The translations under genes were made by a program, and so were the position numbers. A DNA stretch of 64,000 nucleotides from Candidatus Angelobacter sp. Gp1-AA117 (GTDB lineage: Bacteria; Acidobacteriota; Terriglobia; Terriglobales; Acidobacteriaceae), in contig QHVI01000027.1 of the NCBI GenBank assembly GCA_003223515.1, positions 1-64,000 of the forward strand, read 5' to 3'. Below the pieces are notes generated by a model that searched no databases, was not told the DNA's origin, and worked only from the letters and a program-made list of their open reading frames with translations. The stretch's first letter is position 1. Each line of letters starts with the position of its first letter. Shown piece after piece: positions 3,352 to 56,257 of this stretch.

Positions 3352-3365
3352 GCTAAATTCTTGCA

Positions 3366-5975: not shown

Positions 5976-7454
5976 GTGATGACTGTCCTTCGAGTGCTCC
6001 GTCTAATAGCTGTAGTTGCCCTTATTCATACGAAAACCATCAGACGCGTCCTATTGGCTTTGCCGGCACTGCTGATTTCACTGTCCGTTCTTGCCCAGCA
6101 GCCCCAGCTTCCTGACACTCCAGCCGCCCACCAGTTTTCCGCCTGGCTGCAGGCCTTTAACAGCGGTGACCGCGCCACGTTTCTTAAGTTCCTGGAAAGC
6201 AATAACCCGGAGCGTGCCGCCCATATTGACGATGACATGAACTTCCGGCAGAGCACCGGCGGTTTTGATTTTAAAAAATCTGAGGAATCCACTCCCACGC
6301 GTTTTTCCGCCCTTGTGCAGGAACGCAATTCTGACATTGTGGCAAGGCTGGTCATTGAAGTAGAACCAGAGGCGCCACACCGCATCACCTCAATGGACCT
6401 GAGGCGGATGCCGCGTCCAGCGGATTTGACCATCCAGCGGGTAAGTGAAGACCAGACACTTACGGCCCTGAAAGCCAAACTGCAAAAGGACGCAGCCGAA
6501 GACCGCTTCTCCGGCGCTGTCCTGGTGGCTAAAGATGGCAAGCCGGTATTCACCGGCGCTTATGGATTGGCAGACCGCGAGAAGAAAACGCCGAACAAGC
6601 TGAACACCCAGTTCCGGCTGGGCTCGATGAACAAGATGTTTACCGCCGTGGCCACCCTGCAACTGGTACAGGCAGGCAAGATCAAGCTCACCGATCCTGT
6701 AGGCAAGTACCTTGCGGACTATCCCAACAAGGACCTCGCAACCAAAGTTACCATCCATCACCTGCTCACCCATACCGGTGGCACTGGAGACTTCTTCGGC
6801 CCACAGTATGATGCCCATCGCCTGGAGTTGCGCACCCTGCAGGATTACGTGAAGCTCTACGGAGCGCGCGGGCTGCAATTCGAGCCGGGCAGCCGCTGGG
6901 AGTACAGCAATTACGGCTTCCTGCTGCTGGGGGTAATCATCGAGAAGGCCAGCGGACAGAGCTATTACGATTACGTGCACGAACATATCTTCAAACCCGC
7001 CGGAATGACCCTGACTGACTCACTGCCGGAAGAGCAGGCAGTGGCGGGACGCTCGATTGGCTACATGAAATCCGAGGATGGTAAAAACTGGGTCTCGAAT
7101 GCCAACACATTGCCATATCGCGGCACCTCTGCGGGCGGCGGCTATTCAACTGTGGAAGACCTGCTGCGCTTTGCCGTTGCTCTGCAGCGACACAAACTGC
7201 TGGACGCACAACACACCCAGCTGCTCACCACCGGCAAGGTAGAAGCCGGCCCTGGCGGAAAATACGCGTATGGGTTTATCGACCGTACCGAGAACGGACT
7301 GCGCTGCTTCGGCCACGGTGGCGGCGCTCCCGGCATGAATGGCGACCTGGAAATTTGCCAGAACGGCTATGTAGCCGTGGCGCTTGCCAATATGGACCCA
7401 CCCGCAGCTCAAAACGTGACGGGGTTTGTAACCACCCGCCTTCTGGAGAAATAA
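5976..7454 (+). CDS. Exported serine hydrolase, beta-lactamase class C family
   Basis: A 492-residue serine hydrolase of the beta-lactamase / penicillin-binding-protein-like group (PF00144 type). The catalytic Ser-Lys is in SMNK (LGSMNKMFTAVATLQL), the YxN motif is YSNYG and the third motif is HGGGAPG. A basic stretch and hydrophobic core near residues 22-40 end at VLAQQ, giving a signal peptide, so it acts outside the cytoplasm. Between the signal and the catalytic domain (about residues 48-140) lies an NTF2/SnoaL-like accessory region found in some members. GTG at 5976 and ATG at 5979 are both possible starts; the long N-region could also mean an internal start. The true substrate (esterase, D-aminopeptidase or other) cannot be told. 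Confidence 0.88.
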   Translation: MMTVLRVLRLIAVVALIHTKTIRRVLLALPALLISLSVLAQQPQLPDTPAAHQFSAWLQAFNSGDRATFLKFLESNNPERAAHIDDDMNFRQSTGGFDFKKSEESTPTRFSALVQERNSDIVARLVIEVEPEAPHRITSMDLRRMPRPADLTIQRVSEDQTLTALKAKLQKDAAEDRFSGAVLVAKDGKPVFTGAYGLADREKKTPNKLNTQFRLGSMNKMFTAVATLQLVQAGKIKLTDPVGKYLADYPNKDLATKVTIHHLLTHTGGTGDFFGPQYDAHRLELRTLQDYVKLYGARGLQFEPGSRWEYSNYGFLLLGVIIEKASGQSYYDYVHEHIFKPAGMTLTDSLPEEQAVAGRSIGYMKSEDGKNWVSNANTLPYRGTSAGGGYSTVEDLLRFAVALQRHKLLDAQHTQLLTTGKVEAGPGGKYAYGFIDRTENGLRCFGHGGGAPGMNGDLEICQNGYVAVALANMDPPAAQNVTGFVTTRLLEK

Positions 7455-7554
7455 GCGAACGAATTGAGCCGCTGATGAACGCTGCTACCGAACGCTGATT
7501 GAATCAGACAGATATGTAAGCTTTGGTCAGAGCTGCTTTTGCTCTTACTTCTTT

Positions 7555-7593
7555 GATCTGTGTCATCAGTGTTAATCAGTGGTAAAGCCTTTG
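7555..7593 (+). repeat. Dispersed intergenic repeat (ATCAGTGTTAATCAGTGG type)
   Basis: The 317-bp spacer between the serine hydrolase and the propeller gene holds no gene. It contains a motif of the form gatctgtgtcatcagtg...taatcagtgg followed by taaagcctttg. Related sequences lie at 22427-22457 (inverted) and, for the taaagcctttgg part, at 21913-21992. Such sequences occur in spacers of several bacterial phyla. No function is known to me. Confidence 0.5.
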
Positions 7594-7771
7594 AAGTTTC
7601 AGCGTCGTAAGCAGCGTTCATCAGCGGCAAATTCCGATCACGTGTTTCCCCTGACACGCGCGTCTAAATTCATACACACATCTTTGACACACTCGCTCAC
7701 ACAAAACTGATAATTTGGCCGGTTTTCGCGCTGGGTATACGCGTGCTTATATCCAGCGCGAGATCACTCCG

Positions 7772-9733
7772 ATGCTCCGGCGCAGCGCCACAATCCAGAC
7801 AACCCTCGGCTTCATCAGAAAACAATTCAGTAAAAGACACTGGTATTTAATTGTTTCCGCGGCTCTTATTCTTGTCATCAGCTTCACGGCGGCCATGGCT
7901 TACTGGAAGGCGCATCGCGCACTGGCTGCCGCCCGGTATGACATTGCTGCAGAGCGCAAGCATCATTTCGCCATTCTTCGTCTCGATCCGCCCGCCAGTA
8001 TTGCCTTTACTCCGCTGCCCGCGCCCGCTGCCTTCCTGAATGCCACCATCTTCCAGGAACATCTTTTTCTCTGCGGCTCAGCCGGTCTGTTCGAGTATGA
8101 CCAGTCTGGCAGATTGCTCAAGCAATACCGGGTCGGCGCGGAACTGCTGCCCTCTCCTCTATTGCGCATGACTACCGGCCTGCTGCCTGACAGCCGCGAC
8201 CCTGAACTCCTCATCGTCACCGCCTCCCAGGGCGTGCTGGCCTTTGATGGTCATGAGTTCCGCCAGATTCGCCCTAAAGATCCCGATGACCGCGCCATCA
8301 CCGCTATCCTGCCGCTGCACACAGGGCAACTGCTGATCGGTACTCAAAAACGAGGCGTGCTGATGTATGACGGCAAGTCGCTTCGCCAGTTCCATCCTGC
8401 GCTGGCGGACCTTCAGGTCACCGAACTGGCAGGGACCGGCACGGATTTGTGGGTAGGGACCATGGACGAAGGTGTAATCCACTGGAGCGCCGGGCGGGCG
8501 GAGAAATTCTCCGAGCCGGAAGGACTGCCGGACCGCCAGATCTTCTCCATCGCCCTTCAGGACAACAAGGCTTACGTTGGCACCGCCACTGGCGTTGCCG
8601 AATTCATCGCTGGACAGTTCAAGCGGGTGATCACCCCTGGCCTCTTCGCCCGCTCCTTATATATAAGTGGCGCCCGCTTGCTGATTGCAGGCATGGAAGC
8701 GGGCATCACCGAGGTGAATCTGGAAGCGGAGTCCCGTGGCCACCGGCCTGTGGTCCCGGCCAGCCTGAGCGGGGTTCAGCAGATTACCGCCAGCGGTGAC
8801 ACGTTGCTGGCCGTGACTTCAGCCAATCTCTATACCCGTAACGGCCAGCAGGGATGGAGGGCAATGCTCTCTCCCGCCGAAACTCTCCTGAGTGACCGCA
8901 ACATCTCCGCCCTCGCGGTTGATCCTCGTGGAAGGGTCTGGGTTGGATACTTCGATCACGGCCTTGATCTTCTCGACCGCAACCTCCACGAAGTCAGCCA
9001 CATTGAGGATGACCATGTCTTCTGCGTGAACCGCATTCTCATCTCCCAAAACAACATCGCAGTTGCCACTGCCAATGGGCTCGTCCTCTTCGATTCCTCA
9101 GGCAAACAGCTTCAGGTATTAGGACGCGCCCAGGGATTGATTGCCGACCACATCACCGATGTTGCTTCCTACCGTGACGGTCTTGTTCTGGCCACTCCTG
9201 CCGGACTGACCTTCCTTGATCATGGCGGGGCACGCAGCCTCTATGCCTTTCAGGGACTGGTTAACAACCACATCTACGCCGTAGCCACTGACGGCCAGCA
9301 GGTCGTAGCCGGAACGCTGGGCGGCGTCTCCGTTCTTCAGGACGAGCATGTCCTCTCCAACTTCACTATTTCCACGCCGGGGCTGAAGCACAACTGGATT
9401 TCCGCCATCACCCGAGCCGGAGATGACTGGATGATCGGCACCTACGGTGGCGGCGTTGTACGCCTTACCAGGGCCGGAAAATTCGAAGACTTCGAAGTTG
9501 GCACCGGAGACTTTGAGGTCTACCCCAACGCCATGCTCACTACCAGCGGCCACGTGCTGGCGGGTACGCTGGGCCAGGGCCTCTACAGCTTCAATCGCAA
9601 CACCAACCGCTGGTCCCTCATTACTGACGGCCTGCCTTCACTCACCGTAACCGCCCTGGCCGCTGCCGATGGAACCATCTACGTCGGCACTGACAACGGC
9701 CTGGTTTCCATCCCGGAGCAGAACCTGCCATGA
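7772..9733 (+). CDS. Membrane-anchored beta-propeller protein (two-component-regulator propeller repeats)
   Basis: About 653 residues from ATG 7772; a TTG at 7715 would add 19 residues. One transmembrane helix near residues 25-45 (WYLIVSAALILVISFTAAM) anchors the protein, leaving the rest outside the cytoplasm. The remainder consists of repeated blades of the Reg_prop type, with recurring phrases such as GLFEYDQSGR, GVLMYDGKSLRQF, IWVG-like DLWVGTMDEGV and GTYGGGVVRLTRAGKFEDF, probably two propellers. There is no kinase domain, unlike most hybrid sensors with these repeats. It overlaps the VIT/vWA gene by 4 bp (ATGA) and opens the four-gene run ending at 21673, so a joint function at the cell surface is likely. 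Ligand unknown. Confidence 0.8.
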   Translation: MLRRSATIQTTLGFIRKQFSKRHWYLIVSAALILVISFTAAMAYWKAHRALAAARYDIAAERKHHFAILRLDPPASIAFTPLPAPAAFLNATIFQEHLFLCGSAGLFEYDQSGRLLKQYRVGAELLPSPLLRMTTGLLPDSRDPELLIVTASQGVLAFDGHEFRQIRPKDPDDRAITAILPLHTGQLLIGTQKRGVLMYDGKSLRQFHPALADLQVTELAGTGTDLWVGTMDEGVIHWSAGRAEKFSEPEGLPDRQIFSIALQDNKAYVGTATGVAEFIAGQFKRVITPGLFARSLYISGARLLIAGMEAGITEVNLEAESRGHRPVVPASLSGVQQITASGDTLLAVTSANLYTRNGQQGWRAMLSPAETLLSDRNISALAVDPRGRVWVGYFDHGLDLLDRNLHEVSHIEDDHVFCVNRILISQNNIAVATANGLVLFDSSGKQLQVLGRAQGLIADHITDVASYRDGLVLATPAGLTFLDHGGARSLYAFQGLVNNHIYAVATDGQQVVAGTLGGVSVLQDEHVLSNFTISTPGLKHNWISAITRAGDDWMIGTYGGGVVRLTRAGKFEDFEVGTGDFEVYPNAMLTTSGHVLAGTLGQGLYSFNRNTNRWSLITDGLPSLTVTALAAADGTIYVGTDNGLVSIPEQNLP

Positions 9734-12279
9734 AACACCTGCTTAAGTTGTGGCACCCAAGAGACGACTCGCGCACAAGACAAGCACCATGGCATCACTT
9801 TCCGTCGTGCCGGAGCGGGCTTCAGTTCGCGACAGACAGCCGGAAGCAAGCCACTCTGCCGAAGGTTTGTGCGCAGCTCCTGGTGTTGGAGCGGAGCGCA
9901 TTCAAAAAACGAGCCACGCAGCTTGCTATTCTCACCTTTGCTCTTCTCCTTACTCCCCCCCGTCTGTGGGCCGATGCCGGTGTGCTGCTGCCGCGAAACT
10001 ACAAGCAGCCTGATCCGAAAATTCTCTCGCTGGAAGAGATGGAGATCACGGTCACCATCGATAACTCAGACGCACGTGTCTTTGTCCGCCAGATTTTTGC
10101 CAACCACACTTCAAATATCCAAGAAGGCAACTACGTCTTTGACTTGGGCAGTCGCGCTGTTGTATCCGACTTTGCCACCTGGGACGGCCCGGTGCGCATC
10201 CCGGCAGTAGTTCTGGAAAGAAAACGCACCGAAGAAATCTATGAGGGACTGAAGCAGCAGGCCATCGATCCGGGCCTCCTGCAGATGGGAGAGCGCACTG
10301 AAGGCCACAGCTCATCGTTTACCGCCAGGATCACTCCGATTCCCGCCTACGGAACCAAGCGCCTGGAATTCGAGTACCACGAGAGCATCCCGGTTGAAAA
10401 CTTCAAGTCGTTTTTCTCTATTGCGCTGAAGCCAGACGCCTTTCTCAAACAGTCTGCCACCCGCTTCGCCCTTCACTTCGAATTGCGTTCCGAGCACCCG
10501 ATTGCCGGCTTCAAGGCCCTCAGCAAGATCTTTCCATTGAAAATCGAGCAGCAAACTCCCAACCTGGTGCGCGCCAGCTTTCAGGCCGAGGACCTCGATT
10601 TGGCCGAGAATTTCGCCGTGCAGTATGAACTCCAGCCGGTGGGCGACCGGTTGCACGTTTTGACCCACCGTGACCCTGTATCCGGCCAGCCCGACCCTAC
10701 GGAAACATCGCCGATACGCAGCACTAACGAGCCGGGCTTCTTTGAAGTGCAGGCGGTGCTGGGCCGGCAGAATGTTTCCGCATCCGGCCAGAAAGACCAG
10801 AAACGGCCGCCACATAACGTGGTAGTCCTCTTTGACAACTCGCTTTCCATGCAGTGGGACAAGCTGGAGCGCAGCTATGCCGCCCTGCAGAAAATCATGC
10901 ATGTGCTCCAGGCGCAGGACCGCTTCAACCTGCTGCTCTTCAACAACCGGGTGACTCCTTTCGCGTCGCAGATGGGCGCAGCCACTCCCATAGCGTTGCG
11001 GCAGGCGGATGACTTCCTGCAACACAGCATGCTGCGCGGTGGCACCAACCTCCAGCAGGGTTTGGAGGCGGCGCTGCAGCAATGCCGTCAAAATCCACGT
11101 GACAACTACATCGTAGTATTGACGGATGGCGAGGCCACTCGCGGCACAATTCAATCCGGCAAGCTGGCCGCCTGGTACGCCGCGCAATGGAAAGCCATGG
11201 ACGGGGCGCAGCGCCCCCGACTCTTCATTTTTGCCGCCGGTGATGACGTCAACCTGCCGCTATTAAAGATGCTCAGCCGCAATGATGGCGTGCTGGAGAC
11301 CGTGCTCTCCACCGAGCCGGCGGATTTCAAGCTCGATGCTTTCGTTTCCAAAATGGAGTTGGCCCCGGTGCGCGGCCTGCGTCTGGAGGTTGGGCCTGCA
11401 TCCGCCGTAGACCTGGTCTATCCCTTGCAGGACGCAGTTTTTGCCGGGTCAGTCGCCTCCTGGGTCGGCCAGTACAAAGCGCCGCACACTGCCCTGATCT
11501 TTCATGCGTGTGGCGAGCGCGAGAATGGGCCCTTTGATATCTCGAATACTGCCGATCTGCCTCAGAAATCACTCGCCCACCCACAACTGCCGCGCCTGTG
11601 GGCCCGGGCCCGCGTGGATGCGCTGCTCGAAAAGATTGAGCGTGACGGTGAAGACCCTGCCACGATTGATGAAATCATTCGCCTAGCGCGCAAGTACAAG
11701 TTTGTCACTCCTTACACATCATTCCTTGCTGTCCCACGCGCCTTGCTGCGGCCCCGCGTCATCCGCCCCGGAGATCCGGTGCTGCGCGTACACACTGACG
11801 CGGCGATTGTTTCGGTTGTGGCGCTGTTCCCGTTCGGCCTGACCAAGCCTCTGCGCTACCTCAACAAAGAAGACGTGTGGCAGACGCGCTTTCTGGCCCC
11901 GCCTGACATGACGGACGGCACTTACAACGTCAGGCTGGTGCTGCGCGACCGCAGCGGCAACATCTACCGCGAAAACAAAAGCTTCGTAATCGCCAGCAAA
12001 CCGCCCACATTGAAAGTAACTCTCGATAGCCGGCGTTTCCGCCGGGGCAGCGCCATTCATCTGAAGGTCAGTGCCTCATCCAGCACGCGAAACCTGATCG
12101 CGAATCTTCACGGCGCTCCGCGTGTCCGGCTGCTCTGGGATGCTGCTGCCCGCACCAACATCGGCGAACTGCAGTTACCGGCAGACTTCTCTCCCGGTAA
12201 CTACACTCTGGTCGTAACCGCCGAAGACATCGCCCACAACATTGGCAGCCAGGAGGTGCAAATTGAAGTGCTTCCCTAG
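9730..12279 (+). CDS. VIT and von Willebrand factor A domain protein
   Basis: An 849-residue exported protein related to the inter-alpha-trypsin-inhibitor heavy-chain architecture. After an unusual 57-residue leader a signal-like hydrophobic stretch (QLAILTFALLLTPP, about 64-77) precedes the VIT domain (about residues 80-215). The vWA domain (about 360-545) carries the metal-site motif DNSLS with a following TDGEA. The C-terminal third looks like a beta-rich domain. The leader is low-complexity and basic and may not be translated: GTG 9883 or TTG 9886 would place the signal peptide at the N-terminus. ATG 9730 overlaps the upstream stop, favouring coupling. Probably a periplasmic or surface protein-protein interaction module acting with its neighbours. 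Confidence 0.85.
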   Translation: MKHLLKLWHPRDDSRTRQAPWHHFPSCRSGLQFATDSRKQATLPKVCAQLLVLERSAFKKRATQLAILTFALLLTPPRLWADAGVLLPRNYKQPDPKILSLEEMEITVTIDNSDARVFVRQIFANHTSNIQEGNYVFDLGSRAVVSDFATWDGPVRIPAVVLERKRTEEIYEGLKQQAIDPGLLQMGERTEGHSSSFTARITPIPAYGTKRLEFEYHESIPVENFKSFFSIALKPDAFLKQSATRFALHFELRSEHPIAGFKALSKIFPLKIEQQTPNLVRASFQAEDLDLAENFAVQYELQPVGDRLHVLTHRDPVSGQPDPTETSPIRSTNEPGFFEVQAVLGRQNVSASGQKDQKRPPHNVVVLFDNSLSMQWDKLERSYAALQKIMHVLQAQDRFNLLLFNNRVTPFASQMGAATPIALRQADDFLQHSMLRGGTNLQQGLEAALQQCRQNPRDNYIVVLTDGEATRGTIQSGKLAAWYAAQWKAMDGAQRPRLFIFAAGDDVNLPLLKMLSRNDGVLETVLSTEPADFKLDAFVSKMELAPVRGLRLEVGPASAVDLVYPLQDAVFAGSVASWVGQYKAPHTALIFHACGERENGPFDISNTADLPQKSLAHPQLPRLWARARVDALLEKIERDGEDPATIDEIIRLARKYKFVTPYTSFLAVPRALLRPRVIRPGDPVLRVHTDAAIVSVVALFPFGLTKPLRYLNKEDVWQTRFLAPPDMTDGTYNVRLVLRDRSGNIYRENKSFVIASKPPTLKVTLDSRRFRRGSAIHLKVSASSSTRNLIANLHGAPRVRLLWDAAARTNIGELQLPADFSPGNYTLVVTAEDIAHNIGSQEVQIEVLP

Positions 12280-29039: not shown

Positions 29040-29408
29040 TCACAGTTTTTTCTTGCCAGTCGTCACGTATGCAACCTGGGCCTCAACCTTGGCAAGATTT
29101 TCCTGCGCAATCCTCAGATGCTCGTGTGTGATGGGTTGAGCGTAGTAGCGAGCTTGTCGGCTCACACGTTCCAAAGCCAGATATTCCTTAATGACAGTTC
29201 GAAGCTGAGGAATTCTGTTTATGTAATCTCGTCGCTGATCATGGTCAGTCGAATGATAAACGTGGATGGCGAGATAAGACTCAATGACGTGTACGGCTAC
29301 ATAGAAATAGATCGTGACTGCCCAATCGAGAAACTCAGTCTTTGCGAGAGTTTCTGCCAATTTGCGGTTCTTGGCAGCTTGGGCCAGATGTTCGTCGCGA
29401 CTCGGCAA
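29040..29408 (-). CDS. HEPN-like protein
   Basis: A 122-residue, all-helical protein. The pattern HLAQAAKNRKLAETL...DWAVTIYFYVAVHVIESYLA resembles HEPN-type small proteins, which often act as RNase toxins or nucleotide-binding partners. A canonical RxxxxH motif is not obvious, so it may be a non-catalytic member. It starts at a TTG codon immediately after the TAA of the upstream gene (TAATTG), so the two are translated together. The pairing with a small MNT-like protein gives the layout of a HEPN/MNT toxin-antitoxin pair. It lies just outside the left island boundary. Confidence 0.5.
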   Translation of the reverse strand: MPSRDEHLAQAAKNRKLAETLAKTEFLDWAVTIYFYVAVHVIESYLAIHVYHSTDHDQRRDYINRIPQLRTVIKEYLALERVSRQARYYAQPITHEHLRIAQENLAKVEAQVAYVTTGKKKL

Positions 29409-29705
29409 TTAAGCCGCTCGACCGAGTATTAACTGCCCGCTGGGTGTAACGACGTCAGTTGTTTTCCTTCCATTAAGCGGAACCACGTTGAAGTCAAAAG
29501 AGCAACTTGTAAATCGGTCCATGAGTCGTAATTGCACGTCACAGATACGATCTTCAACATCATAATCCTTGGTCGGCACTGTTATCGTGATGAGAAACTT
29601 ACTGGCCCGCCTGAGCAGAAAGGCCGATTCGACCTCCTGAATTTCGGAGAGCATTGCACGAATCGTTTCAGTTTCCACTCCTTGGGATGCAGCGGTGGAA
29701 GCCAT
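29409..29705 (-). CDS. Small alpha/beta protein paired with HEPN-like gene (MNT-like?)
   Basis: 98 residues from ATG 29705, chosen because a clear ribosome site (AGGAGA) lies 5-10 bases upstream; longer in-frame starts exist at 29732 and 29753. The predicted order is helix, strand (FLITITVPTKDYD), helix (EDRICDVQLRLMDRF) and strand (CSFDFNVVPLNGR), compatible with a small ferredoxin-like or minimal-nucleotidyltransferase-like fold, but GSxxxDxD is missing. Directly coupled to the HEPN-like gene. Its role as antitoxin or partner is inferred from context only. Confidence 0.5.
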   Translation of the reverse strand: MASTAASQGVETETIRAMLSEIQEVESAFLLRRASKFLITITVPTKDYDVEDRICDVQLRLMDRFTSCSFDFNVVPLNGRKTTDVVTPSGQLILGRAA

Positions 29706-29840
29706 CTTGTCTCCTGATGTTTGTTGGTTCATGATTTTAACCCGAAAGCCCAAATTGTTGAAACGATACGTGCAGTGTGCCTTTTCAATAACTTAGAAGA
29801 TGGGTTCCGTGTAGCTGTTGGCTCGTTACGGGAATTTTGA

Positions 29841-29889
29841 TGGAGGCGCGGGTCGGAATCGAACCGACGCATAAAGGTTTTGCAGACCT
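29841..29889 (-). repeat. attL: 49-bp copy of the tRNA-Cys 3' half
   Basis: These 49 bases are identical to 57296-57344, the 3' half (T-arm, variable region, anticodon arm part and CCA end) of the intact tRNA-Cys gene. Identity ends abruptly at 29890 versus 57345. This is the direct repeat expected when an element integrates into the 3' end of a tRNA gene. It marks the left boundary of the island; the original host tRNA 3' half remains here as a fragment. Confidence 0.93.
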
Positions 29890-29945
29890 TCAAGAGTCCT
29901 CCGCAACTGCTTTGTTTTCATTGTGTCCAGTTATTCAATGGGCTA

Positions 29946-29967
29946 TTTTGTCCGGTTTTTGTCCGGT
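29946..29967 (+). repeat. Tandem 11-bp motif near attL (candidate integrase arm sites)
   Basis: Two perfect head-to-tail copies of TTTTGTCCGGT lie 57 bp inside the left attachment site. A matching tandem pair (TTGTCCGAC core) lies 100 bp inside the right attachment site at 57174-57195. The symmetric position near both ends fits arm-type binding sites of the tyrosine integrase. Confidence 0.6.
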
Positions 29968-29998
29968 TCCAAAAATCTGTAGCTGCCGAGGGCCGGGT

Positions 29999-30325
29999 AT
30001 GATCACCTACTGCGTTATGTGCGGGAAGCCATTAGACGAACGGGACGCAGCGAACAAGGCCATTACTCACCGTGATCCGCAATCGTATCGGAGGGAATGG
30101 CGTAACCGCTGGAAGCGGGTCAAAAAGTCCTACCGGGTGACACCTGAAGAATTCCGCCAGGTGCTCAAGCTGAGAAGGGCCGCGAAGCGGAAGCCAGCAA
30201 TTTTGTCCCAGACCGTCCAGCAAGGCGTAGGGCACTGCCCTACACACCAAGAACGGAGTATGCAATCGTCCCATAAAGCCAATTTTTCAAGAACTGAGAT
30301 TTCAGCGCACGGAGGGCTGCCCTGA
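29999..30325 (+). CDS. Small hypothetical protein with CxxC motif
   Basis: 108 residues from ATG 29999; the longer open frame upstream runs across attL and is not used here. The N-terminus MITYCVMCGKPL has a CxxC pair of rubredoxin-knuckle style, followed by a basic region (QSYRREWRNRWKRVKKSYRVTPEEF and LKLRRAAKRKP) suggesting nucleic-acid binding. Gene family not recognised. It is the first gene of the island's left end, and its stop overlaps the next small frame (TGATG). Confidence 0.45.
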   Translation: MITYCVMCGKPLDERDAANKAITHRDPQSYRREWRNRWKRVKKSYRVTPEEFRQVLKLRRAAKRKPAILSQTVQQGVGHCPTHQERSMQSSHKANFSRTEISAHGGLP

Positions 30326-30531: not shown

Positions 30532-30825
30532 ATACGCCGTATCTTTCCTGCCACCCTAATCGGGCGGAAAAGTAGTGTGGCAATTCTCGCCTTACCCCGT
30601 TCGTAAAGGCGTTGGGCGAACTGCAATCCTTGATACAACACGGGGCGAGTTATCCCACTTCTCTTCACGTGCCAAGCGAACGGCAGCTATTAAGCATGCG
30701 CCCAAGAAGATGAGCTTTCTATCGCTACTGGGTTGGTCCGGCGGCATGGTTCGCAGTGGAGGGGAATATATAGCGAAAGTCCATTTGTTTGAGCTGATTT
30801 CATTTGCTTGTTAGTCTCAGGCATG

Positions 30826-31254
30826 ATGAATGCGGAAAATGAGTTGTGCGGCATCTGCGGCTGCGTCCTTCACCGTTCGGGTGAGTACGCAACGCCGACA
30901 CTTCAAGGCCGGTCACACGCCACAAGACACCATTTCGTACCTGAACGCTTCTTTGGCCGTTCGGCGAATCGGAAAGGTCCAAAGCGCGAAGGGATTTTTG
31001 CCGAATGTCCTTGGGCTCACGAGGGAGAGACAGCCGTGTATTGCTACGAGTGTCATGAAGAATTACTCCACAATCCGGTATTGCTGCCGGGAGACATTGC
31101 AACATTCGCCGCTCTGGTCAAGGCATGGGGCTTCGCAGAAGACAAGAAGCCTGCAGATAGAGAAAAGATCGCTGGCAGGATCAGGCTCCTCCATGAAGTC
31201 ATTGTTGCGGGATTGCAAGTCTTGTCGGAGCGAAGCAAAGGCGGATTGCAATGA
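30826..31254 (+). CDS. HNH-type nuclease-like protein
   Basis: About 142 residues; ATG 30826 (or 30823) is chosen. It carries two zinc knuckles, CGICG at the start and CYEC near residue 72, around RHHFVPERFF and CHEELLHNPVLLP. This fits the beta-beta-alpha-metal HNH layout (His of RHHF, later His-Asn of LLHN). HNH domains cut DNA in restriction, phage defence and homing systems. It overlaps the following GIY-YIG gene by 4 bp (ATGA), so it is the first member of a three-gene cassette with tight coupling. Assignment is by motif; specificity unknown. Confidence 0.6.
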   Translation: MNAENELCGICGCVLHRSGEYATPTLQGRSHATRHHFVPERFFGRSANRKGPKREGIFAECPWAHEGETAVYCYECHEELLHNPVLLPGDIATFAALVKAWGFAEDKKPADREKIAGRIRLLHEVIVAGLQVLSERSKGGLQ

Positions 31255-31916
31255 CCGCAGAAGAACTGTGTAGTAGCCTACACACACTGCTGTTGCAACT
31301 GCCGGTGTACACCAGTCCAAGCGATGTGCCCTTCAGCAACGGGTTGTATTTTTTCTATGAGACGGGGGAGACAAGTCAGCATGCACCGGCTGGCCGTATC
31401 GTGCGGATAGGCAATCATCCTCGGAGCGACGGCACATTGGTACGTCGCCTGAAACAGCATTATGGCGGAAGAAAAAATGGAAGTGTCTTTAGACGATATC
31501 TAGGCGGTGCTTTGATTCGGTGTAGCACTACGCAAAGTCCATGCCTGATGCCTGGCCCTGGGCTCGGGCATTGGGAGAGGCAGCACGCGAATACCTGTTC
31601 GGCATGCGATGTCATCGAGAAGCAAGTTTCGGCAGTGTTGTATTCATCATTCAGCTTTAGGTGTGTTGAAATTTCGGCCCGGCAGGTACGGAATCGTTTA
31701 GAAGGTTTGCTCATCGCAACACTCGCAAATTGCGGCACGTGTGGCCCCTCAGCAGAGTGGTTGGGCCGCAATGCCTATTCAACTGTCGTTCAAACAACCG
31801 GCCTGTGGAACAGCGATTTTGTTACTGGCCCTTTGCTCCAAGAAGCTGATTTCAAAGACTTCGATTTCGTTGTGAGTGAAACTGTGAACAAGTGGGTATG
31901 TACACGAAACTGCTGA
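31251..31916 (+). CDS. GIY-YIG-like nuclease domain protein
   Basis: 221 residues. The core NGLYFFYE...GRIVRIG...LVRRLKQHYGG...SVFRRYLGGAL follows the GIY-YIG plan: the first tyrosine strand, the second strand here VRIG instead of YIG, then conserved Arg and His. The C-terminal half contains several Cys (CSACD, NCGTCG) and is not recognised. GIY-YIG enzymes make metal-dependent DNA nicks in repair, restriction and mobile elements. It is sandwiched between the HNH gene (4-bp overlap) and the YaaA-like gene (about 19-bp overlap), which implies a joint protein module. Confidence 0.6.
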   Translation: MTAEELCSSLHTLLLQLPVYTSPSDVPFSNGLYFFYETGETSQHAPAGRIVRIGNHPRSDGTLVRRLKQHYGGRKNGSVFRRYLGGALIRCSTTQSPCLMPGPGLGHWERQHANTCSACDVIEKQVSAVLYSSFSFRCVEISARQVRNRLEGLLIATLANCGTCGPSAEWLGRNAYSTVVQTTGLWNSDFVTGPLLQEADFKDFDFVVSETVNKWVCTRNC

Positions 31917-32515
31917 TAATTCCATGCTCACAGTCGAAGAAGGGCGGTAACAGCGCAATAGCAGCCCGCTCTATTGACGAGTTCATCTCTCCCGAAAGCT
32001 CAGAACTGCTTCGTTCAGCGCGGCGAAGCGCATTTCAGAGATCACAAACAAGATTGGATATGGACTCAGACGCCATCCCCGCGCTTTTTCGATATTCGGG
32101 CAATATGTGGTCAGTGGAAGGCTTCCGGGAGGCGATTCAAGGCGCTTTGTCAGATGGCTTACATGTGCTAGTCGAAAGTGGCGGTTATGGCCTTATCAGA
32201 GTGGAGGAAGGAATTCACGAATACGAAGCTTCGATCAACAGAACCGCGCCAATATGGCGCCACGTTTTCCCGTTAGTGTTGACTGACTACATTTCGCGGA
32301 ATGGCATTAACTCAATTTTTGTCGCGGGATCTGGACAGTATTTGCAGATCCTGCGCAAGAAGAACTGGTGGGGCGGTAGAGAATGCAGATGGTTTGTTGC
32401 TCGAATGTCAGGCGATGGAAACCGGTATCGAGTCGTACCTCGCGCTATCGGGTGCGCCGTTCGTGATCTCATTCTATCCAGGTTTAGCACGGCGTCTTCC
32501 TGGCTTACGAATTGA
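31898..32515 (+). CDS. YaaA/DUF6884-like protein
   Basis: About 205 residues from ATG 31898 (GTG 31892 is also possible). The N-terminus LLIIPCSQSKKGG and the later LVESGGYGLIRVEEGIHEYE match the pattern of YaaA and DUF6884-type proteins: a Cys-Ser near a first strand, then a glycine-rich SxxYGL motif. YaaA protects DNA from oxidative damage and binds DNA; DUF6884 proteins occur in modification or defence loci. Here the gene overlaps the GIY-YIG gene, so it is likely the third subunit of a candidate defence cassette. The family link is moderate. Confidence 0.55.
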   Translation: MYTKLLIIPCSQSKKGGNSAIAARSIDEFISPESSELLRSARRSAFQRSQTRLDMDSDAIPALFRYSGNMWSVEGFREAIQGALSDGLHVLVESGGYGLIRVEEGIHEYEASINRTAPIWRHVFPLVLTDYISRNGINSIFVAGSGQYLQILRKKNWWGGRECRWFVARMSGDGNRYRVVPRAIGCAVRDLILSRFSTASSWLTN

Positions 32516-32587: not shown

Positions 32588-33001
32588 TTATCCATCCATA
32601 TCGAATGAAAACCCTTTGACTGCGGGCACGTGAGTGAATCCTGCAGCTATCGATAGATAGAAGCGGTGTGCTCCATGAGTCAACCTGTAGGCGTGTGAAT
32701 TTACTACCGACACCTTTACGATCTCGACTGGCGGAAGCGCAGATGCGTTCACGAATCCAAGAAGGATGTTGATGACTCGTTCCTTTGCGGTCAGACCTGT
32801 CTCTTGATCATCGTTGAAAATGCCATGGCTTAGTTGTCGTTTAACAGGCTCAACCTCGTCAATTGGCACGCAGGAGCAGTCTGGAAACTTTTGCAAGTCA
32901 ACACGATATGACCGAGAGCTGGGCACGAATGAAGACATTCCAGCCTCGGCCCACCATTCGTCACTTAGCTCAAACGAAAAGTCATGATGTACAAATCGCA
33001 T
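32588..33001 (-). CDS. ParB/sulfiredoxin-like domain protein
   Basis: 137 residues. The C-terminal half (LPPVEIVKVSVVNSHAYRLTHGAHRFYLSIAAGFTHVPAV) matches the ParB-N / sulfiredoxin-type core, with GxHR as the nucleotide-binding-like motif (GAHR). No HTH segment follows, so it is a solitary ParB-like domain; such domains include DNA-binding CTPases and nucleases. It converges on the YaaA-like gene with 72 bp between stops and is transcribed opposite to the cassette, so it could be an antagonist or an unrelated gene. Confidence 0.5.
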   Translation of the reverse strand: MRFVHHDFSFELSDEWWAEAGMSSFVPSSRSYRVDLQKFPDCSCVPIDEVEPVKRQLSHGIFNDDQETGLTAKERVINILLGFVNASALPPVEIVKVSVVNSHAYRLTHGAHRFYLSIAAGFTHVPAVKGFSFDMDG

Positions 33002-33525: not shown

Positions 33526-33546
33526 ATGCGACTGATGGGGGCAAAA

Positions 33547-34797
33547 ATGTTGAAACCGACCAAATTAGAGCTAGAGAACAGGGTCCGCCAATGGATAAAG
33601 AAAAACAGGAAGGAAAACATCCGCCTCGAATTTAAGCTGAAAGTTGATCTGAGCACTATCGGGGCAAAGGCTGAATTCATCCGTGATGTCATTGCCTTGG
33701 CGAACTCGGAAGGGGAGATTCCGCGCAGTGAGGGTCATCTCGTTATAGGTTTCAGAAACGGCGAGCTCTTCGACATCGAAAGCGAGCGCTATGATGGTGC
33801 CAAGTTCGGACAGCTCCTCGACTCATACATTTCGCCGCATGTTAGTGTCTCTTACGAGGAGTTCGAGAACGGGAAGCGAGGACGTGTCGGCGTTCTGGTC
33901 GTGAAGCCCGATGTTCATGTCCTTTACATTGCCGCCAAGGAACTTCGCGATGAGAAAGGAAAGCTTGAACTCTTGCCTGGACAAAGCTGGGGACGGAAGT
34001 CTGACAGAAAGATGGCTCTTCAGGGCGAAGCAATTCAGCACAGGCTTTCCAATATCACCAAGCAAAAGATTGATGCTGCGATATCTCCACTAGAAGAAAG
34101 GATCATTGAACTGCAGCGAGCAGCAGGCCCTGCGCTCGAGGTTAAGAAGATCCGCTATGAAATTGAGGCAACCCGAGAATGGCCCGAGATCGAACGACAC
34201 TTGGAACGGCTAGTGCCATATGCAAGGGAGTACGAGCATCATGTAAAAGAAGAAGTTCTTGACGCTCTTGGGGCAGTGACGGGAAGGACGCGGGACGAAA
34301 TGCCGCTTCAGGTACTACAAGGGGTGGATAGTGTTTTGGCGGAAATAATGTTTATAGGCTGGGGCGGGTTGCAACGGCGTTCCAACAAAGAGATTTCAGT
34401 TGAGGATCAAAAGGTGTTGAAACGAGTGGGGCACGCCACGTATGAGCTGACCTGGGATTCCTGCCGTTACTTGCGAAACCTGGAGATGGTAAGGACCTGC
34501 GCGCATCGATATTGGGCTCTGATTAGGTTCGCCGCTCTGAACAGTCTACCGAGCCTGCAAGAGTCCTTGCTGGAGGACATACGCTATTGCCAGCAAATCT
34601 GTCTGGAGGAACGAAACGGCGCAGCTTTTCCCGAAGCTTACGATCTGATTGAATGGCAGATTAAGGATGCATTAGACTTGCCACAGAAGCCACAGCGTTC
34701 TGAAACAATCGAACGCTCCCTCCCCAGAGGTTCTCCGCTGAACTACGCCAGATCAATATCTATGAGAAAGTTCTCGCCTTTGGGGACTGAAGAGTAG
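33547..34797 (+). CDS. AlbA_2 (Schlafen-type) ATP-binding domain protein
   Basis: About 416 residues from ATG 33547, preceded by GGGGGC; an upstream ATG at 33526 would add 7 residues. Residues 20-110 match the AlbA_2 domain (ENIRLEFKLKVDL...KAEFIRDVIALANSEG...GHLVIGFRNGELFDIE...SYISPHV), the bacterial relative of the Schlafen core, which has RNase or ATP-binding activity. The remaining 300 residues are helical (a likely coiled coil ITKQKIDAAISPLEERIIELQRAAG near 170-195) and unrecognised. In islands such proteins appear as defence or regulatory components. Confidence 0.65.
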   Translation: MLKPTKLELENRVRQWIKKNRKENIRLEFKLKVDLSTIGAKAEFIRDVIALANSEGEIPRSEGHLVIGFRNGELFDIESERYDGAKFGQLLDSYISPHVSVSYEEFENGKRGRVGVLVVKPDVHVLYIAAKELRDEKGKLELLPGQSWGRKSDRKMALQGEAIQHRLSNITKQKIDAAISPLEERIIELQRAAGPALEVKKIRYEIEATREWPEIERHLERLVPYAREYEHHVKEEVLDALGAVTGRTRDEMPLQVLQGVDSVLAEIMFIGWGGLQRRSNKEISVEDQKVLKRVGHATYELTWDSCRYLRNLEMVRTCAHRYWALIRFAALNSLPSLQESLLEDIRYCQQICLEERNGAAFPEAYDLIEWQIKDALDLPQKPQRSETIERSLPRGSPLNYARSISMRKFSPLGTEE

Positions 34798-38077: not shown

Positions 38078-39898
38078 TCACGCAAGCTCGGTTTGCGGCT
38101 CCTTGTGCTTTTCTGCTGAGAGCAGGCCGGTCTTGGGATTGATCGTATAACCGGCGCGCCGCAACGCGAGGAGCACATCGCTGAGATGAAGCTCATCTAG
38201 CGTGCAATGCTCCTGGATAGCCCTGCGAAGAATGCTGGCGTACACATGACTTGCGTTGCGCACCTCGTCCGAAGAAAGCTCCCGAACCGCCTCTGCTATG
38301 AGTCGCTGTGTGTCTCCGCTCTGTAATCGATGCCCATCATCCGCGCGTTCAGCCTGGGAAGGCGAAGGCTTCTGCAGCGTCAGAATCAGATCCACCGTCA
38401 CCACGCTTTCCGAACCGGAATTCAGTCCCTTGACTGAGCGCTGCCCCTTGTCGAGTATTGCCACATGGACAGGTGCCGACTTGAATCCCGCATCGCGAAC
38501 CGCCCGCTGTACAAGACCCCATATCCGCCCGCTGCTGTTTCCAAACACCACCGACATATACCGGCCCGGTTTCAGGATGCGAAAGGCCTCCGCAAATGAG
38601 GAGCGCAGTAATGCCTCGTAACGCTCTGCCGCGCCGTTCTTGCGCTTGCCCGTCGTGTAAACCACCGCTTCGGAGACATAGTTCGTCACTTCGCCCAGCC
38701 AGGCTTCATGAAAGAGATTCATGTCGCTGTAAAAGATGTTGCTGCCGAACGGCGGGTCGGTGAACACATAATCCACCGATTCCGAGTCGAGGTGCGCCAA
38801 GAGGTTGGCGGAGGCAAGGCAATAGTCCAGTTTGCCTTCCGGCCGGCCACACAACAGCGATGCGTTATCGAACAGGATTTCGTCGGAGCGAAGCACCGCA
38901 TCCACCTTGCGACCGAACAACTCGAACACGTTCCATTCGTAGTACACGGGAGCAATGTAATAGGTCTGGTTTTGCGCATTCAGCGGACGCTGCGCGCTCC
39001 ACTGATAACGGCGGGAGGCGCGCGGCAGTATGGCCGTGAACGCAAAGCTCAGCTTCTGCCGCAGTCCTGGATCGCCGACCTTGTTGATCGCCCGCCAGAG
39101 TTCGAGCAGGGCGATGGCATTGCGCGGCGAGAAAAAATCCGATGTCCGGATAAGGCCAGCTTTCCTGAGTCCCGAGCGGCTGAACATTTCCCGGTCCTCG
39201 GTGATGGGCAGCGACGGCACCTCTGACTGCCGTGCATCCTGTGCTGCCTCCTCAATCATGTGCAGATCGAAACCGGAAACCGGCTGCTCCGTCAAACGCC
39301 CCTCCGTGTTCCGCGCCACGACTTCCACGGGAGTGTCCGCACTTCGTTTCCATCTGCGACGCGCAAACGGGTGCTTGCAGCCCGGACAGGCCTTCGGAGC
39401 CTCTCCTTTTGACGAGAGATGGCGGTAATAGATAAGGGGAGCCTCGCAGGACGGGCAGAGATAGGTGAACGACCAGACGGTGCGCACCATCTCCACTTCT
39501 GCTCCGTCGCTCACCCGGCGAGTGGCGTAGAGACTCCCGATGGCCTTGCGGGCCTGGCTGACTACTTCCTCCGCTCTCTCCGTGAAGTCCTCCGGACTGA
39601 CCCTGGTGGCGTATCCGCGCGCGATATGGCGTCCCAGTGCCGAAATATCGCTCAGCTTCGCCTTGCGCCCGAGACGCACGGAGGCTAAGCCGGTCATGCC
39701 GGAGCCGCCGAAGAAGTCGGCGACGACTTCGCCCGGTCTCGTGAAGGTCTCGATGAAGGGCTCGATTGCCGCGACGGGCACCTTGGTAAGGTAGCTGTGG
39801 CAGTTGTAAATGGGGTCCGTTCGTGGTGCGGTGATGATCGCGGGCAGCTCGGTTAACTTGGAGGGTACAATCACCGTTTTTCCTTTGAAATCCAGCAA
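38078..39898 (-). CDS. DNA methylase with zinc-ribbon insert
   Basis: 606 residues. An AdoMet-binding motif DFFGGSGMTG (near 61-70) precedes a zinc ribbon (CPSCEAPLIYY...CPGCKHPF near 147-175) and a catalytic DPPFGSN (near 382). The order of motif I before motif IV fits the alpha-type arrangement of amino-methyltransferases (N6-adenine or N4-cytosine). The long inserted region 180-370 is probably the target-recognition domain. It is transcribed divergently from an XRE regulator and a nuclease-like gene (40219), so it may be the modification half of a restriction system. The C-terminal 90 residues are helical and may add a second DNA contact. It does not resemble the methylase at 47193. Confidence 0.85.
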   Translation of the reverse strand: MLDFKGKTVIVPSKLTELPAIITAPRTDPIYNCHSYLTKVPVAAIEPFIETFTRPGEVVADFFGGSGMTGLASVRLGRKAKLSDISALGRHIARGYATRVSPEDFTERAEEVVSQARKAIGSLYATRRVSDGAEVEMVRTVWSFTYLCPSCEAPLIYYRHLSSKGEAPKACPGCKHPFARRRWKRSADTPVEVVARNTEGRLTEQPVSGFDLHMIEEAAQDARQSEVPSLPITEDREMFSRSGLRKAGLIRTSDFFSPRNAIALLELWRAINKVGDPGLRQKLSFAFTAILPRASRRYQWSAQRPLNAQNQTYYIAPVYYEWNVFELFGRKVDAVLRSDEILFDNASLLCGRPEGKLDYCLASANLLAHLDSESVDYVFTDPPFGSNIFYSDMNLFHEAWLGEVTNYVSEAVVYTTGKRKNGAAERYEALLRSSFAEAFRILKPGRYMSVVFGNSSGRIWGLVQRAVRDAGFKSAPVHVAILDKGQRSVKGLNSGSESVVTVDLILTLQKPSPSQAERADDGHRLQSGDTQRLIAEAVRELSSDEVRNASHVYASILRRAIQEHCTLDELHLSDVLLALRRAGYTINPKTGLLSAEKHKEPQTELA

Positions 39899-46154: not shown

Positions 46155-46631
46155 ATGCAAAACCAAATGGTTCTTGCAGGCCTGCTTTTATCGAGTGTGC
46201 TTGTAGGTGTTACGATCGGAATTGTGATCTCTGTACTTTGGCAGCGCGAGCGTGCAAAGCGGTTTCGAGTTTACCATGGCATTCCGAATGTCATCGGGAG
46301 GTGGCGATGCACGTGGTTCGATGACGCGCAAGGTCAGGAGCAGCCCAAGGTGGAAGATACTGTAGAGATTCAGAAGTGGACGACCGAGGGTCAGTTCCTT
46401 GCGGTCGGACACCAACCGCAGTTTCATCTCTCTTACCCGATTATGGGAGAAATTGACGCTTCGCGCGTGGTGACTCTCGTCTACAAAGCCGCACGCTATC
46501 CGTTTGAGCCAAACCGCGGAGTCGCTGTCTTGGAGATGTCAAGAGACGGCAAGACGATGGATGGGCGCTGGTACGGACGGCGCTCATCAACCCAGTTGGG
46601 TGGCGGACTAGTCAGATGTGTACGACTCTAA
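46155..46631 (+). CDS. Membrane-anchored lipocalin-like protein, paralogue 1
   Basis: 158 residues from ATG 46155 (ribosome site GAGGTGA). One transmembrane helix at residues 5-28 (MVLAGLLLSSVLVGVTIGIVISVLW, shown in part) is followed by a charged link and a beta-rich domain: IGRWRCTWFDD, EDTVEIQKWTTEGQF, YPIMGEIDASRVVTLVYKA, GVAVLEMSRDGKTMDGRWYG, GGLVRCVRL. The G-x-W opening and 8 or so strands suggest a lipocalin/FABP-like barrel that binds a small ligand. It aligns with the next gene over the whole soluble part. In bacterial anti-phage systems, membrane-anchored beta-barrel effectors (Cap15) have a related design, but sequence identity is not claimed. Confidence 0.65.
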   Translation: MQNQMVLAGLLLSSVLVGVTIGIVISVLWQRERAKRFRVYHGIPNVIGRWRCTWFDDAQGQEQPKVEDTVEIQKWTTEGQFLAVGHQPQFHLSYPIMGEIDASRVVTLVYKAARYPFEPNRGVAVLEMSRDGKTMDGRWYGRRSSTQLGGGLVRCVRL

Positions 46632-47192: not shown

Positions 47193-47939
47193 ATGATCGA
47201 TGTTTTCTACCATACCTCGGTGAGTATGTCTGAACTCTCCGACGACAACGCTCAGCTTGTAATCGGTAGCCCTCCTTTCACCAATCATCCCGACGGTAAG
47301 AGCCTAGAAAAGAAAAGTTACTTGCGGTTTATCAGATCAGTTTTCTCTGAAATCTGGCGTGTCCTGGAGCCGGGACGGCTATGGGTTTGTATCAATACCG
47401 ATTTGCGCGATCATGCTCGATATAATCGTCGTGATGGACGATTCAACGGCCTCCTCTGGCAGAAACACACCTCCCTCCGATATATTGCCGAGAGCATAGG
47501 CTTTCGGTGTATAGACATGAAGATATGGGCAAAGTCCCTCAATCCGAACGTCTATCGTTACGGATTTGCCTACGTTCAATTTTTCAAGAAATCCGCCGGC
47601 AGTAGAACACAGACCCGCACGGGAGTCTCCGCCACGTTTTCTCCAGACGTGTGGTTACTAGAAGGTGGCACTTATCGTAAAGATTCACGTGGGTATGTTT
47701 TCCGGGACGCCTTTCATCCCGAAATTGTGAGTCGCTGCTTGGAGCAGTTTACTAATGCGGGTGACCTCGTGGTATCGCCCTTTGCTGGCTCAGGTACAGT
47801 TCCAGCGGTCGCCAAGCTTCTAGGGCGACGCTGCATTGCTTATGAAATAGATCGTAACCTCAAGCCACTGATTGAGGAGACGATCGCGAATCCAGAGCGT
47901 TATCCCGCGTTTCTTTCATTAATGAAAATGAAGAGCTGA
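47193..47939 (+). CDS. DNA methyltransferase, SPPF type (N4-cytosine or N6-adenine)
   Basis: 248 residues from ATG 47193, 20 bp after the preceding stop. The catalytic motif IV is GSPPFTN (26-29 SPPF) and the AdoMet motif I is VSPFAGSGT (near 195), the order of beta-class amino-methylases. SPP[FY] is the motif commonly found in N4-cytosine methylases. The TRD region between is short, so this is a compact member. No nuclease directly follows, so it may be an orphan protecting methylase or the self-marking member of the radical SAM/lipocalin cassette. Not similar to the zinc-ribbon methylase at 38078. Confidence 0.9.
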   Translation: MIDVFYHTSVSMSELSDDNAQLVIGSPPFTNHPDGKSLEKKSYLRFIRSVFSEIWRVLEPGRLWVCINTDLRDHARYNRRDGRFNGLLWQKHTSLRYIAESIGFRCIDMKIWAKSLNPNVYRYGFAYVQFFKKSAGSRTQTRTGVSATFSPDVWLLEGGTYRKDSRGYVFRDAFHPEIVSRCLEQFTNAGDLVVSPFAGSGTVPAVAKLLGRRCIAYEIDRNLKPLIEETIANPERYPAFLSLMKMKS

Positions 47940-55843: not shown

Positions 55844-56257
55844 ATGAGCAATACCACGCAAGCCGGGGAATGCATGGATGTGAGGAACTCCATGTTCTCT
55901 GACGTTGAACTCTCAGAGAATCTGTGTTTGTCCCTTGCGACCCTGGCGAAGTGGCGTAGCGCCAAAAAAGGCCCTTCATATATCAAAATAGGGCGTAGAA
56001 TCTTTTACCCTAAGATGGCTGTATCGAAGTGGCTTCAAGATCAGACGATGGAGATAGAAACACATGAGCATCAGGAATCGCGGCGGGAAGTGGCATTACC
56101 GATTTCAGTTCGACGGGAAAGAGTACGCAGCCAGCACCGGCTTGGCCGCCACCGTGTCAAACGAGAGACGAGCCCGGCAGATCGAGGCCGAGGCACTGAA
56201 GGAGCTACAGGAGGGACGGCAGCCGCAGCCCAAGATCAAAGTCACTCGGTTCATTGA
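55844..56257 (+). CDS. Excisionase-like HTH protein overlapping integrase start
   Basis: Starts at ATG 55844 (or 55874). SDVELSENLCLSLATLAKWRSAKKGPSYIKIGRRIFYPKMAVSKWLQDQTM is a winged HTH of the excisionase/AlpA type, ending near residue 72. The frame then runs 194 bp into the integrase gene in another frame, with an arginine-rich unlikely C-terminus (RRERVRSQHRLGRHRVKRE). The probable functional protein is the first 75-80 residues; the original stop seems lost. It is the nearest regulator to the integrase and the best candidate for Xis. Confidence 0.6.
   Translation: MSNTTQAGECMDVRNSMFSDVELSENLCLSLATLAKWRSAKKGPSYIKIGRRIFYPKMAVSKWLQDQTMEIETHEHQESRREVALPISVRRERVRSQHRLGRHRVKRETSPADRGRGTEGATGGTAAAAQDQSHSVH

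Follow-up and report, generated by a model that had tools for sequence, protein, structure and literature searches.

A GIY-YIG-like and YaaA/DUF6884-like gene pair, preceded by an HNH-like gene, at the left end of a tRNA-Cys island in Candidatus Angelobacter sp. Gp1-AA117

The locus described here lies on contig QHVI01000027.1 of Candidatus Angelobacter sp. Gp1-AA117 (Acidobacteriota; assembly GCA_003223515.1), of which positions 1 to 64,000 were analyzed (hereafter referred to as the window). Reading of the open reading frames (ORFs) of the window identified three genes on the forward strand, all open and overlapping: an HNH-like gene (gene 1, 30823–31254, with an ATG at 30823 or 30826, 142–143 amino acids), a GIY-YIG-like gene of the PDC-M57B family (gene 2, 31251–31916, 221 amino acids), and a YaaA/DUF6884-like gene (gene 3, 31892–32515, with a GTG at 31892, giving 207 amino acids, or an ATG at 31898). 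Genes 1 and 2 overlap by 4 bp (ATGA), and genes 2 and 3 by 25 bp from the GTG or 19 bp from the ATG. An earlier note, made from the sequence alone, had described three overlapping genes on one strand at the left end of an island; the coordinates and open frames are confirmed, and the position agrees with a 49-bp exact direct repeat, identified by DNA search, at 29841–29889 and 57296–57344. In composition the cassette differs little from its surroundings (GC content of 0.51–0.54 for the three genes, 0.54 for the island and 0.56 for the remaining window). The genes are considered to be more than chance frames, because gene 2 matches a PADLOC model with an E-value of 7.1e-32, relatives of genes 2 and 3 are fused in other genomes, and gene 1 possesses a relative of 55% identity.

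Comparison with other genomes points to genes 2 and 3 as the conserved unit. When GTDB genomes were scanned with an alignment of three rows, 173 candidate stretches yielded 17 loci, bacterial as well as archaeal. Partners were counted in these with a long-type and a short-type profile, whose source ORFs had been selected by eye next to gene 2. A partner of the YaaA/DUF6884 type is joined to the GIY-YIG gene in one open frame, as a fusion, in three loci (L019, Acidimicrobiaceae; L020, Euryarchaeota; L021, Thermoprotei), and lies adjacent to it, upstream and on the same strand, in ten (L022, L023, L024, L025, L028, L029, L031, L033, L034 and L035), adjacency being defined as stop-to-stop frames that overlap or are at most 80 bp apart. 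In one further locus (L027) the partner is 622 bp off, on the other strand, and in three none was found. The partners of L027 and L035 were found by profile and not by eye, L024 and L031 repeat, judging by length, contigs met in an earlier search (G022:C28 and G224:C11), and broken or cut genes, as read, occur in four of the 17 loci (L031, L033, L034, L035). Elsewhere in the 203 kb of loci, the only other profile matches (E < 0.001) were a second L023 gene 423 bp off, itself part of the long profile, and an ORF of L025 (4122–4589). The L019 fusion aligns to both window proteins (51% identity to gene 2 and 36% to gene 3, in a single protein), and genes 2 and 3 are therefore seen as a pair coupled by descent.

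Further instances lie outside the 17 loci. A GIY-YIG/YaaA pair with a 4-bp overlap is present in L013, a DUF6884 gene (Pfam E-value of 8.4e-41) is found immediately upstream of the GIY-YIG relative on the Deinococcus plasmid L008, and in Halorientalis L009 a DUF6884 gene is located ∼2.3 kb downstream of it. Two of the fusions, L019 (1881–2285) and L021 (4339 onward), carry an N-terminal domain ahead of the GIY-YIG-YaaA region, which matches DUF7664 in L019 (6.1e-10); a two-row profile of it identified no copy in any other of the 35 loci or in the window, and in some lineages it would form a third component. Two neighborhoods are recorded here as side observations: in L013 (genome G322), a gene of the defence-candidate family PDC-S19 (327–1391, 4.2e-55) is located directly upstream of the pair, and in L025 (4122–10301) the pair has as neighbors methyltransferase-like ORFs and a gene with weak likeness to a restriction enzyme (PADLOC REase_II, 0.0017), the ORF at 4122–4589 being a second, distant YaaA-like frame.

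The gene 2 protein matches the PADLOC model PDC-M57B (PDLC04713) over nearly its whole length, and PDLC04714 with an E-value of 1.1e-18. PDC-M57 was taken from PADLOC-DB 2.0.0, where it comprises the genes M57A and M57B; PDC stands for phage-defence candidate, and the PDC-M57B model carries no description. No Pfam family matched gene 2 at E ≤ 1, the GIY-YIG profile included, and a search of PDB sequences with the gene 2 alignment profile gave nothing relevant. At the places of the literal GIY and YIG motifs, the protein has GLY and RIG (VRIG, with arginine for tyrosine). Members of the GIY-YIG family vary in the literal GIY and YIG motifs, and their catalytic residues are the tyrosine of GIY, an arginine, a histidine or tyrosine, and a glutamate. 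Conserved residues in the family of gene 2 are G31, Y33, R52, G54, R66, H70 and E151, with Y33 retained in 19 of 20 aligned sequences, R66 in 18, H70 in all 20 and E151 in 19; the window protein has all four. The relatives in two Micrarchaeota loci, L030 (7989–8582) and L032 (7995–8588), have lost R66, G54 and R52, and L032 also lacks E151. Both are among the three loci for which the search turned up no YaaA partner, and the loss of R66 in just these fits a joint function, in this one clade only; these two proteins are possibly regulatory or decaying.

The family is patchy, occurring in the phylum in 4/247 genomes with a single-sequence query and in 5/396 with an alignment query, own genome included. 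Two GIY-YIG queries gave no match in phages, two gave none in viral contigs, and three matched 2, 9 and 0 plasmid records; on these searches, a phage-borne or plasmid-borne family was rejected.

Gene 3 is more divergent from the available profiles. In Pfam it falls below the cut-off both for PF03883 (0.0038; 17.2 against 29.6 bits) and for DUF6884 (PF21818, 0.017; 15.7 against 30 bits). It gave no match to PDC-M57A (PDLC04712) at E ≤ 1, nor did a search of its own genome (0/1 at E ≤ 0.001), and it matches the DpdC profile of PADLOC weakly (1.1e-4), as do its relatives. The motifs CxxxK and SxxxG are intact, as in all 15 sequences counted (8 long and 7 short, window included, the partners in L008, L009, L027 and L035 being left out of this count). 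Five of the seven long-type relatives pass the PF03883 cut-off (L020, L021, L023, L033 and L034), while L019 and L013 fail it. The PDC-M57A model matches DUF6884-type partners (L008, 2.5e-33; L009, 3.1e-15; L013, 2.8e-7; L007, 1.4e-4) and also, weakly, long-type relatives of gene 3 (L021, 6.6e-5; L023, 9.4e-4; L033, 0.0011; L020, 0.0031; L034, 0.022), with no match to that of L019. A phmmer search of PDB sequences with the YaaA part of L020 returned just YaaA, at 0.69. From these comparisons, gene 3 is probably a longer, PF03883-like form of a wider YaaA/DUF6884 kind, and the assignment made in the earlier note stands, on the motifs, on the relatives that pass PF03883 and on the predicted fold of one of them.

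That fold was read on L019, whose GIY-YIG domain is 51% identical to the window protein, rather than on the window proteins themselves. An AlphaFold2 model of the L019 fusion, from an alignment of 17 rows, has a mean predicted local distance difference test (pLDDT) score of 76, with values >90 across much of the GIY-YIG part; in the alignment behind the model (A4), YaaA-only rows are partly misaligned to the GIY-YIG part at their N-termini. Searched against the PDB with Foldseek, the model (557 residues) had no match at E ≤ 0.001. In a second look, the YaaA part found E. coli YaaA (5caj) first, with a Z-score of 7.5 over 155 residues, followed by AF0587 (7.2), the next chain being at 5.1, and the GIY-YIG part found T4 endonuclease II (5.9) and the GIY-YIG domains of UvrC (5.2–5.3) on top; Z-scores of 5–8 are middling, and according to the tool a value under 8 may reflect a common arrangement. 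Uracil-DNA-glycosylase-type chains reached ∼3.6–4.1, level with unrelated folds such as cutinases. In the model, the GIY-YIG core (strands 166–172 and 185–190, helices 198–206 and 217–230, helix 255–271, strand 272–278, helix 282–298) agrees with the strand-strand-helix-helix-strand-helix order of that family, and the YaaA part is predicted to adopt the YaaA (“cantaloupe”) fold. Since the Z-scores are under 8, the fold reading rests on its agreement with the sequence evidence, namely the PF03883 passes and the retained motifs. Among the six best matches of the L019 model to viral models, three are named YaaA or DUF6884 (E-values of 2.0e-3 to 5.5e-3), and no GIY-YIG match was found, the whole model and not the GIY-YIG part alone having been searched.

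The position of gene 1 is different. Its protein possesses a CGIC motif near the N-terminus, HHF at 35–37 and CYECH..LLHN at 73–83 (numbered from 30826), but it matches no HNH profile of Pfam, NCBIfam, PADLOC or PHROGs, and no PDB sequence. Its sole Pfam match is the zinc finger PF25512 (0.015, below cut-off), and the predicted model of the protein alone is uninformative (pLDDT of 42.5). Of the two nuclease folds proposed earlier, GIY-YIG is supported, by its motifs and by the predicted fold of the relative, and the HNH fold is unproven by profile, PDB or model.

Relatives of gene 1 are scarce. Among 249 genomes of its own order, the query matched ten at E ≤ 0.01: its own, genome G1051, and eight at 1.3e-4 to 0.0096. 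The G1051 protein is the single convincing relative (55% identity, 6.6e-48), and it retains HH and H77/H82, with a tryptophan in place of C76 (L046). Its gene (L059, about 9499–9903) adjoins, on the opposite strand, genes of the Hma system (2690–9021; HmaA 3.6e-188, HmaB 7.5e-102), and no GIY-YIG or YaaA match was found in the 11 kb fetched around it. L047 (genome G1093, 28.6% identity over 70 residues), the only one of the eight weak matches inspected, lies, as read, on the strand opposite a hemB-like gene. Among 297 genomes of the phylum only its own matched (1/297 at E ≤ 0.001), and no relative was found in plasmids, phages or viral contigs. Against the ORFs of 35 loci, which include some duplicates, the protein matched just the window copies L001, L002 and L018 (phmmer, E ≤ 1). 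Three matches in the phylum of G396 (3/296, 0.004–0.009) were taken for chance; L036 and L037 read as ORFs, and the L038 match holds four stops. Searches of 12 genomes carrying GIY-YIG relatives (E ≤ 1) and of 199 genomes from the phylum of G402 (E ≤ 0.001) gave no match, and are uninformative because they contained no known positive.

The full triple was met only in the window genome. The earlier note had treated the three genes as one coupled unit, and the neighborhood survey does not bear this out: conservation is seen for genes 2 and 3 only, gene 1 is unmatched in the loci of their relatives, and the G1051 relative lacks genes 2 and 3. The HNH, GIY-YIG and YaaA triple was therefore rejected as a conserved unit. 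Gene 1 is an accessory to genes 2 and 3, probably locally acquired, and the comparisons suggest a member of a real family, met twice in defence company, that does not regularly accompany the pair. A separate observation concerns the Haloarcula plasmids L014 (6738–7604), L015 (5718–6605) and L017 (5718–6605), where an annotated HNH endonuclease gene abuts the GIY-YIG relative in convergent orientation, the next gene in L014 and L017 being annotated DUF6610. The Pfam HNH matches of the L014 gene are below cut-off, and none of the Haloarcula HNH genes shows similarity to gene 1 (phmmer, E ≤ 1). Since they are unlike gene 1, an HNH gene may have arrived next to GIY-YIG genes of this family on two or more occasions.

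The 49-bp repeats delimit an integrative tRNA-Cys island of 27.5 kb. The cassette lies ∼0.95 kb in from its left end, ahead of all other identified cargo, and an integrase is encoded at the far end. The left copy (29841–29889) is an attL-like fragment of tRNA-Cys, and the right copy (57296–57344) lies within the end of tRNA-Cys (57296–57370, minus strand), adjoined by a gene for a tyrosine integrase (56064–57164, plus strand; PF00589, 6.1e-24). The stretches fetched from four related genomes each hold a single copy of the 49-mer, inside a tRNA-Cys beside tRNA-Gly; an empty island site was not shown, the proteins of the flanks giving just paralogue-level ATP-binding cassette (ABC) matches in these stretches. 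Other island genes encode a Schlafen/AlbA_2-domain protein (33526–34797, plus strand; PF04326, 1.4e-7; PADLOC PDC-S50, 1.8e-4), a DNA methyltransferase (38078–39898, minus strand; PF01555, 2.1e-15; PADLOC MTase_II, 9.2e-95, and PglXI, 1.5e-82), a DNA methylase (N6_N4_Mtase; 47193–47939, plus strand; PF01555, 2.4e-20), a weakly radical-SAM-like protein (below cut-off) and an ISL3 transposase. A small protein at 46155–46631 shows weak likeness to 2TM effectors and to Cap15 (PF18153, 3.3e-4, below cut-off). Two small ORFs that abut each other on the minus strand (29040–29753), immediately outside the left repeat, are a possible toxin-antitoxin pair, the first being weakly HEPN-like (PF05168, 0.18). 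The ORF at 29837–30325, whose N-terminus reads through the tRNA-Cys repeat, is probably not a gene.

Opposite the cassette, a ParB-like ORF (32588–33001, minus strand, 137 amino acids) is convergent with the three genes. It has no Pfam match, and against the 35 loci it found window copies only; its single plasmid relative is located behind ABC-transporter genes. The suggestion that it may be a part of the cassette did not hold up, and it was rejected as one, with no linkage to genes 2 and 3 elsewhere.

I favor the reading of genes 2 and 3 as the core of a two-part DNA nuclease system akin to PDC-M57, which would provide restriction-type defence by reading a base and cutting, and I hold it with belief and doubt about evenly balanced. 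In such a system the YaaA-like protein would bind double-stranded DNA and use its CxxxK/SxxxG pocket to read an unusual base or lesion, probably by flipping it out, after which the GIY-YIG protein would cut the DNA nearby. On a mobile island, the most likely target would be foreign DNA with base modifications or unusual replication intermediates. Gene 1, acquired locally, would perhaps be a second-strand nuclease. According to the Pfam paper (PMC11701544), DUF6884 resembles YaaA, its cleft is positive and its CxxxK and LSAxxG motifs are conserved; the paper cites the Bacillus subtilis member YfjM as reported to interact with abasic and RNA-base lesions, and presents a predicted base flip. YaaA is reported to co-purify with double-stranded DNA (PMC4834066). 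By analogy with this literature on DUF6884, and with that on DpdC, the YaaA part may bind modified bases. A defence role, which the earlier note had considered plausible, agrees with the PADLOC defence-candidate family, the mobile island and the methyltransferase neighbors.

Several observations weigh against this reading. Gene 3 is below both Pfam cut-offs and misses PDC-M57A; the short partners of L006, L023 and L025 also fail to match PDC-M57A, and the DUF6884 label of the short partners comes from motifs, position and weak matches (0.0016, below cut-off, for DUF6884 in L006). The count of partners is partly by construction, as the profiles were made from eye-picked neighbors of gene 2. No YaaA partner was found by profile in L026, L030 and L032, no YaaA neighbor in the stretches of Haloarcula L014, L015 and L017 and Salinibaculum L016, and no intact YaaA partner was seen for the GIY-YIG relative of G054. 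The fold matches are of the middling strength given above, and YaaA-like folds are shared by DpdC and by a stress protein, which leaves base reading here as an argument by analogy. The literature searched contained no experiment linking PDC-M57 to phage resistance.

The alternative that survives best is DNA repair, which I consider unlikely yet a live rival to defence. Genes 2 and 3 would then be a lesion-specific incision pair that travels on mobile DNA, the YaaA-like protein finding abasic, oxidized or ribo-substituted sites and the GIY-YIG protein nicking in the manner of UvrC. The lesion interactions of YfjM cited above would suit such a role, as would the presence of UvrC among the fold matches and the ordinary-looking neighborhoods, as ORFs were read, of several relatives; E. 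coli YaaA is moreover described as acting in the peroxide response, its loss raising the mutation rate (PMC4834066). The occurrence of the family in only 5/396 genomes of the phylum (own included), the place of the cassette at the edge of an integrase-bearing island, the listing of both families as defence candidates by PADLOC, and the company of the L025 pair, which adjoins the weakly restriction-enzyme-like gene and methyltransferase-like ORFs, argue the other way. Defence is favored over repair because of the mobile island, the patchy occurrence and the PADLOC listing.

It is improbable that the pair is a restriction system protected by one of the neighboring DNA methyltransferases (38078–39898 or 47193–47939). 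Both genes are on the same island, and L025 has methyltransferase-like ORFs alongside, as read from sequence, but those of the window are separated from the pair by 5.5 and 15 kb that include other genes and the ISL3 transposase, and none was noted beside the other relatives, whose neighborhoods had no search for one. Similarly improbable is a YaaA-like subunit that is an active base-flipping enzyme (a glycosylase like uracil-DNA glycosylase, or a base-modifying enzyme), with the GIY-YIG protein incising the resulting site and the HNH protein cutting the opposite strand. If true, this would be base-excision repair turned into a weapon against hypermodified or odd bases of invading DNA, and would give the YaaA/DUF6884 superfamily its first partner-defined role. 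Least probable is a modification-restriction system of the Dpd type, in which the YaaA-like protein, like DpdC (DUF328), would modify a base, leaving the nucleases to cut unmodified DNA: the weak DpdC matches of gene 3 and its relatives, and the ParB-like gene opposite, recall Dpd systems, which are described as having a PF03883 protein for DpdC and a ParB-like one for DpdB (PMC12839542), but that ORF has just 137 amino acids and was not found beside genes 2 and 3 elsewhere, and base exchange is disfavored by the lack of a second tRNA-guanine transglycosylase (TGT) in the genome, the only one (PF01702, 5.7e-155) being on contig C10, the window being on C148, with no DpdA-like enzyme near the island by the TGT model applied to the whole genome.

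The interest of the two-part nuclease reading lies in the YaaA-like partner. To my knowledge, neither YaaA nor its relative DUF6884 has an agreed activity, although the fold of YaaA is solved and DNA binding and a stress phenotype are on record for it. The recurrent pairing and fusion with one GIY-YIG family, in bacteria and archaea, would tie both to DNA incision, and would give a mechanism to the PADLOC candidate PDC-M57, for which no experimental paper was found. The name PDC-M57 was not found in the literature searched, “PDC” is absent from the PADLOC server paper (PMC9252829), and, judged from literature listings, no paper was found on a GIY-YIG and YaaA/DUF328 pair; nor was any found on YfjM and phage.

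Among known systems, Hma (the helicase HmaA and the methylase HmaB) touches this locus through gene 1, whose sole convincing relative adjoins HmaA and HmaB; it differs in that no Hma protein is among the best PADLOC matches listed for the window proteins scanned, and no GIY-YIG or YaaA gene accompanies that relative. DpdC, termed an amidohydrolase (PMC6884629), resembles gene 3 in its weak profile match and shares the DUF328/PF03883 family, whereas the DpdA-type TGT of its systems was not seen near the island. T4 endonuclease II and UvrC are the best GIY-YIG folds of the L019 model, while the window protein has VRIG, with arginine for the tyrosine of YIG, and no Pfam GIY-YIG match. YaaA itself (DUF328, PF03883; 5caj) is the nearest fold of the L019 YaaA part, and its family profile is passed by most long-type relatives; the window protein is below that cut-off, and is coupled to a nuclease gene. 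PDC-M57 is the closest comparison: gene 2 matches M57B, M57A matches DUF6884 proteins of the wider kind to which gene 3 belongs, and the two genes are adjacent. Gene 3 misses the M57A model, being longer and PF03883-like, and the HNH-like gene coupled ahead of the pair is additional. The order here, GIY-YIG then YaaA, is that of the three fusions and of L013, unlike the ten adjacent loci, where the YaaA/DUF6884-type gene comes first. Because gene 3 fails the M57A model, the locus is placed as a diverged, HNH-bearing variant and not as PDC-M57 proper, and it looks like a variant of a listed PADLOC candidate rather than a wholly new system.

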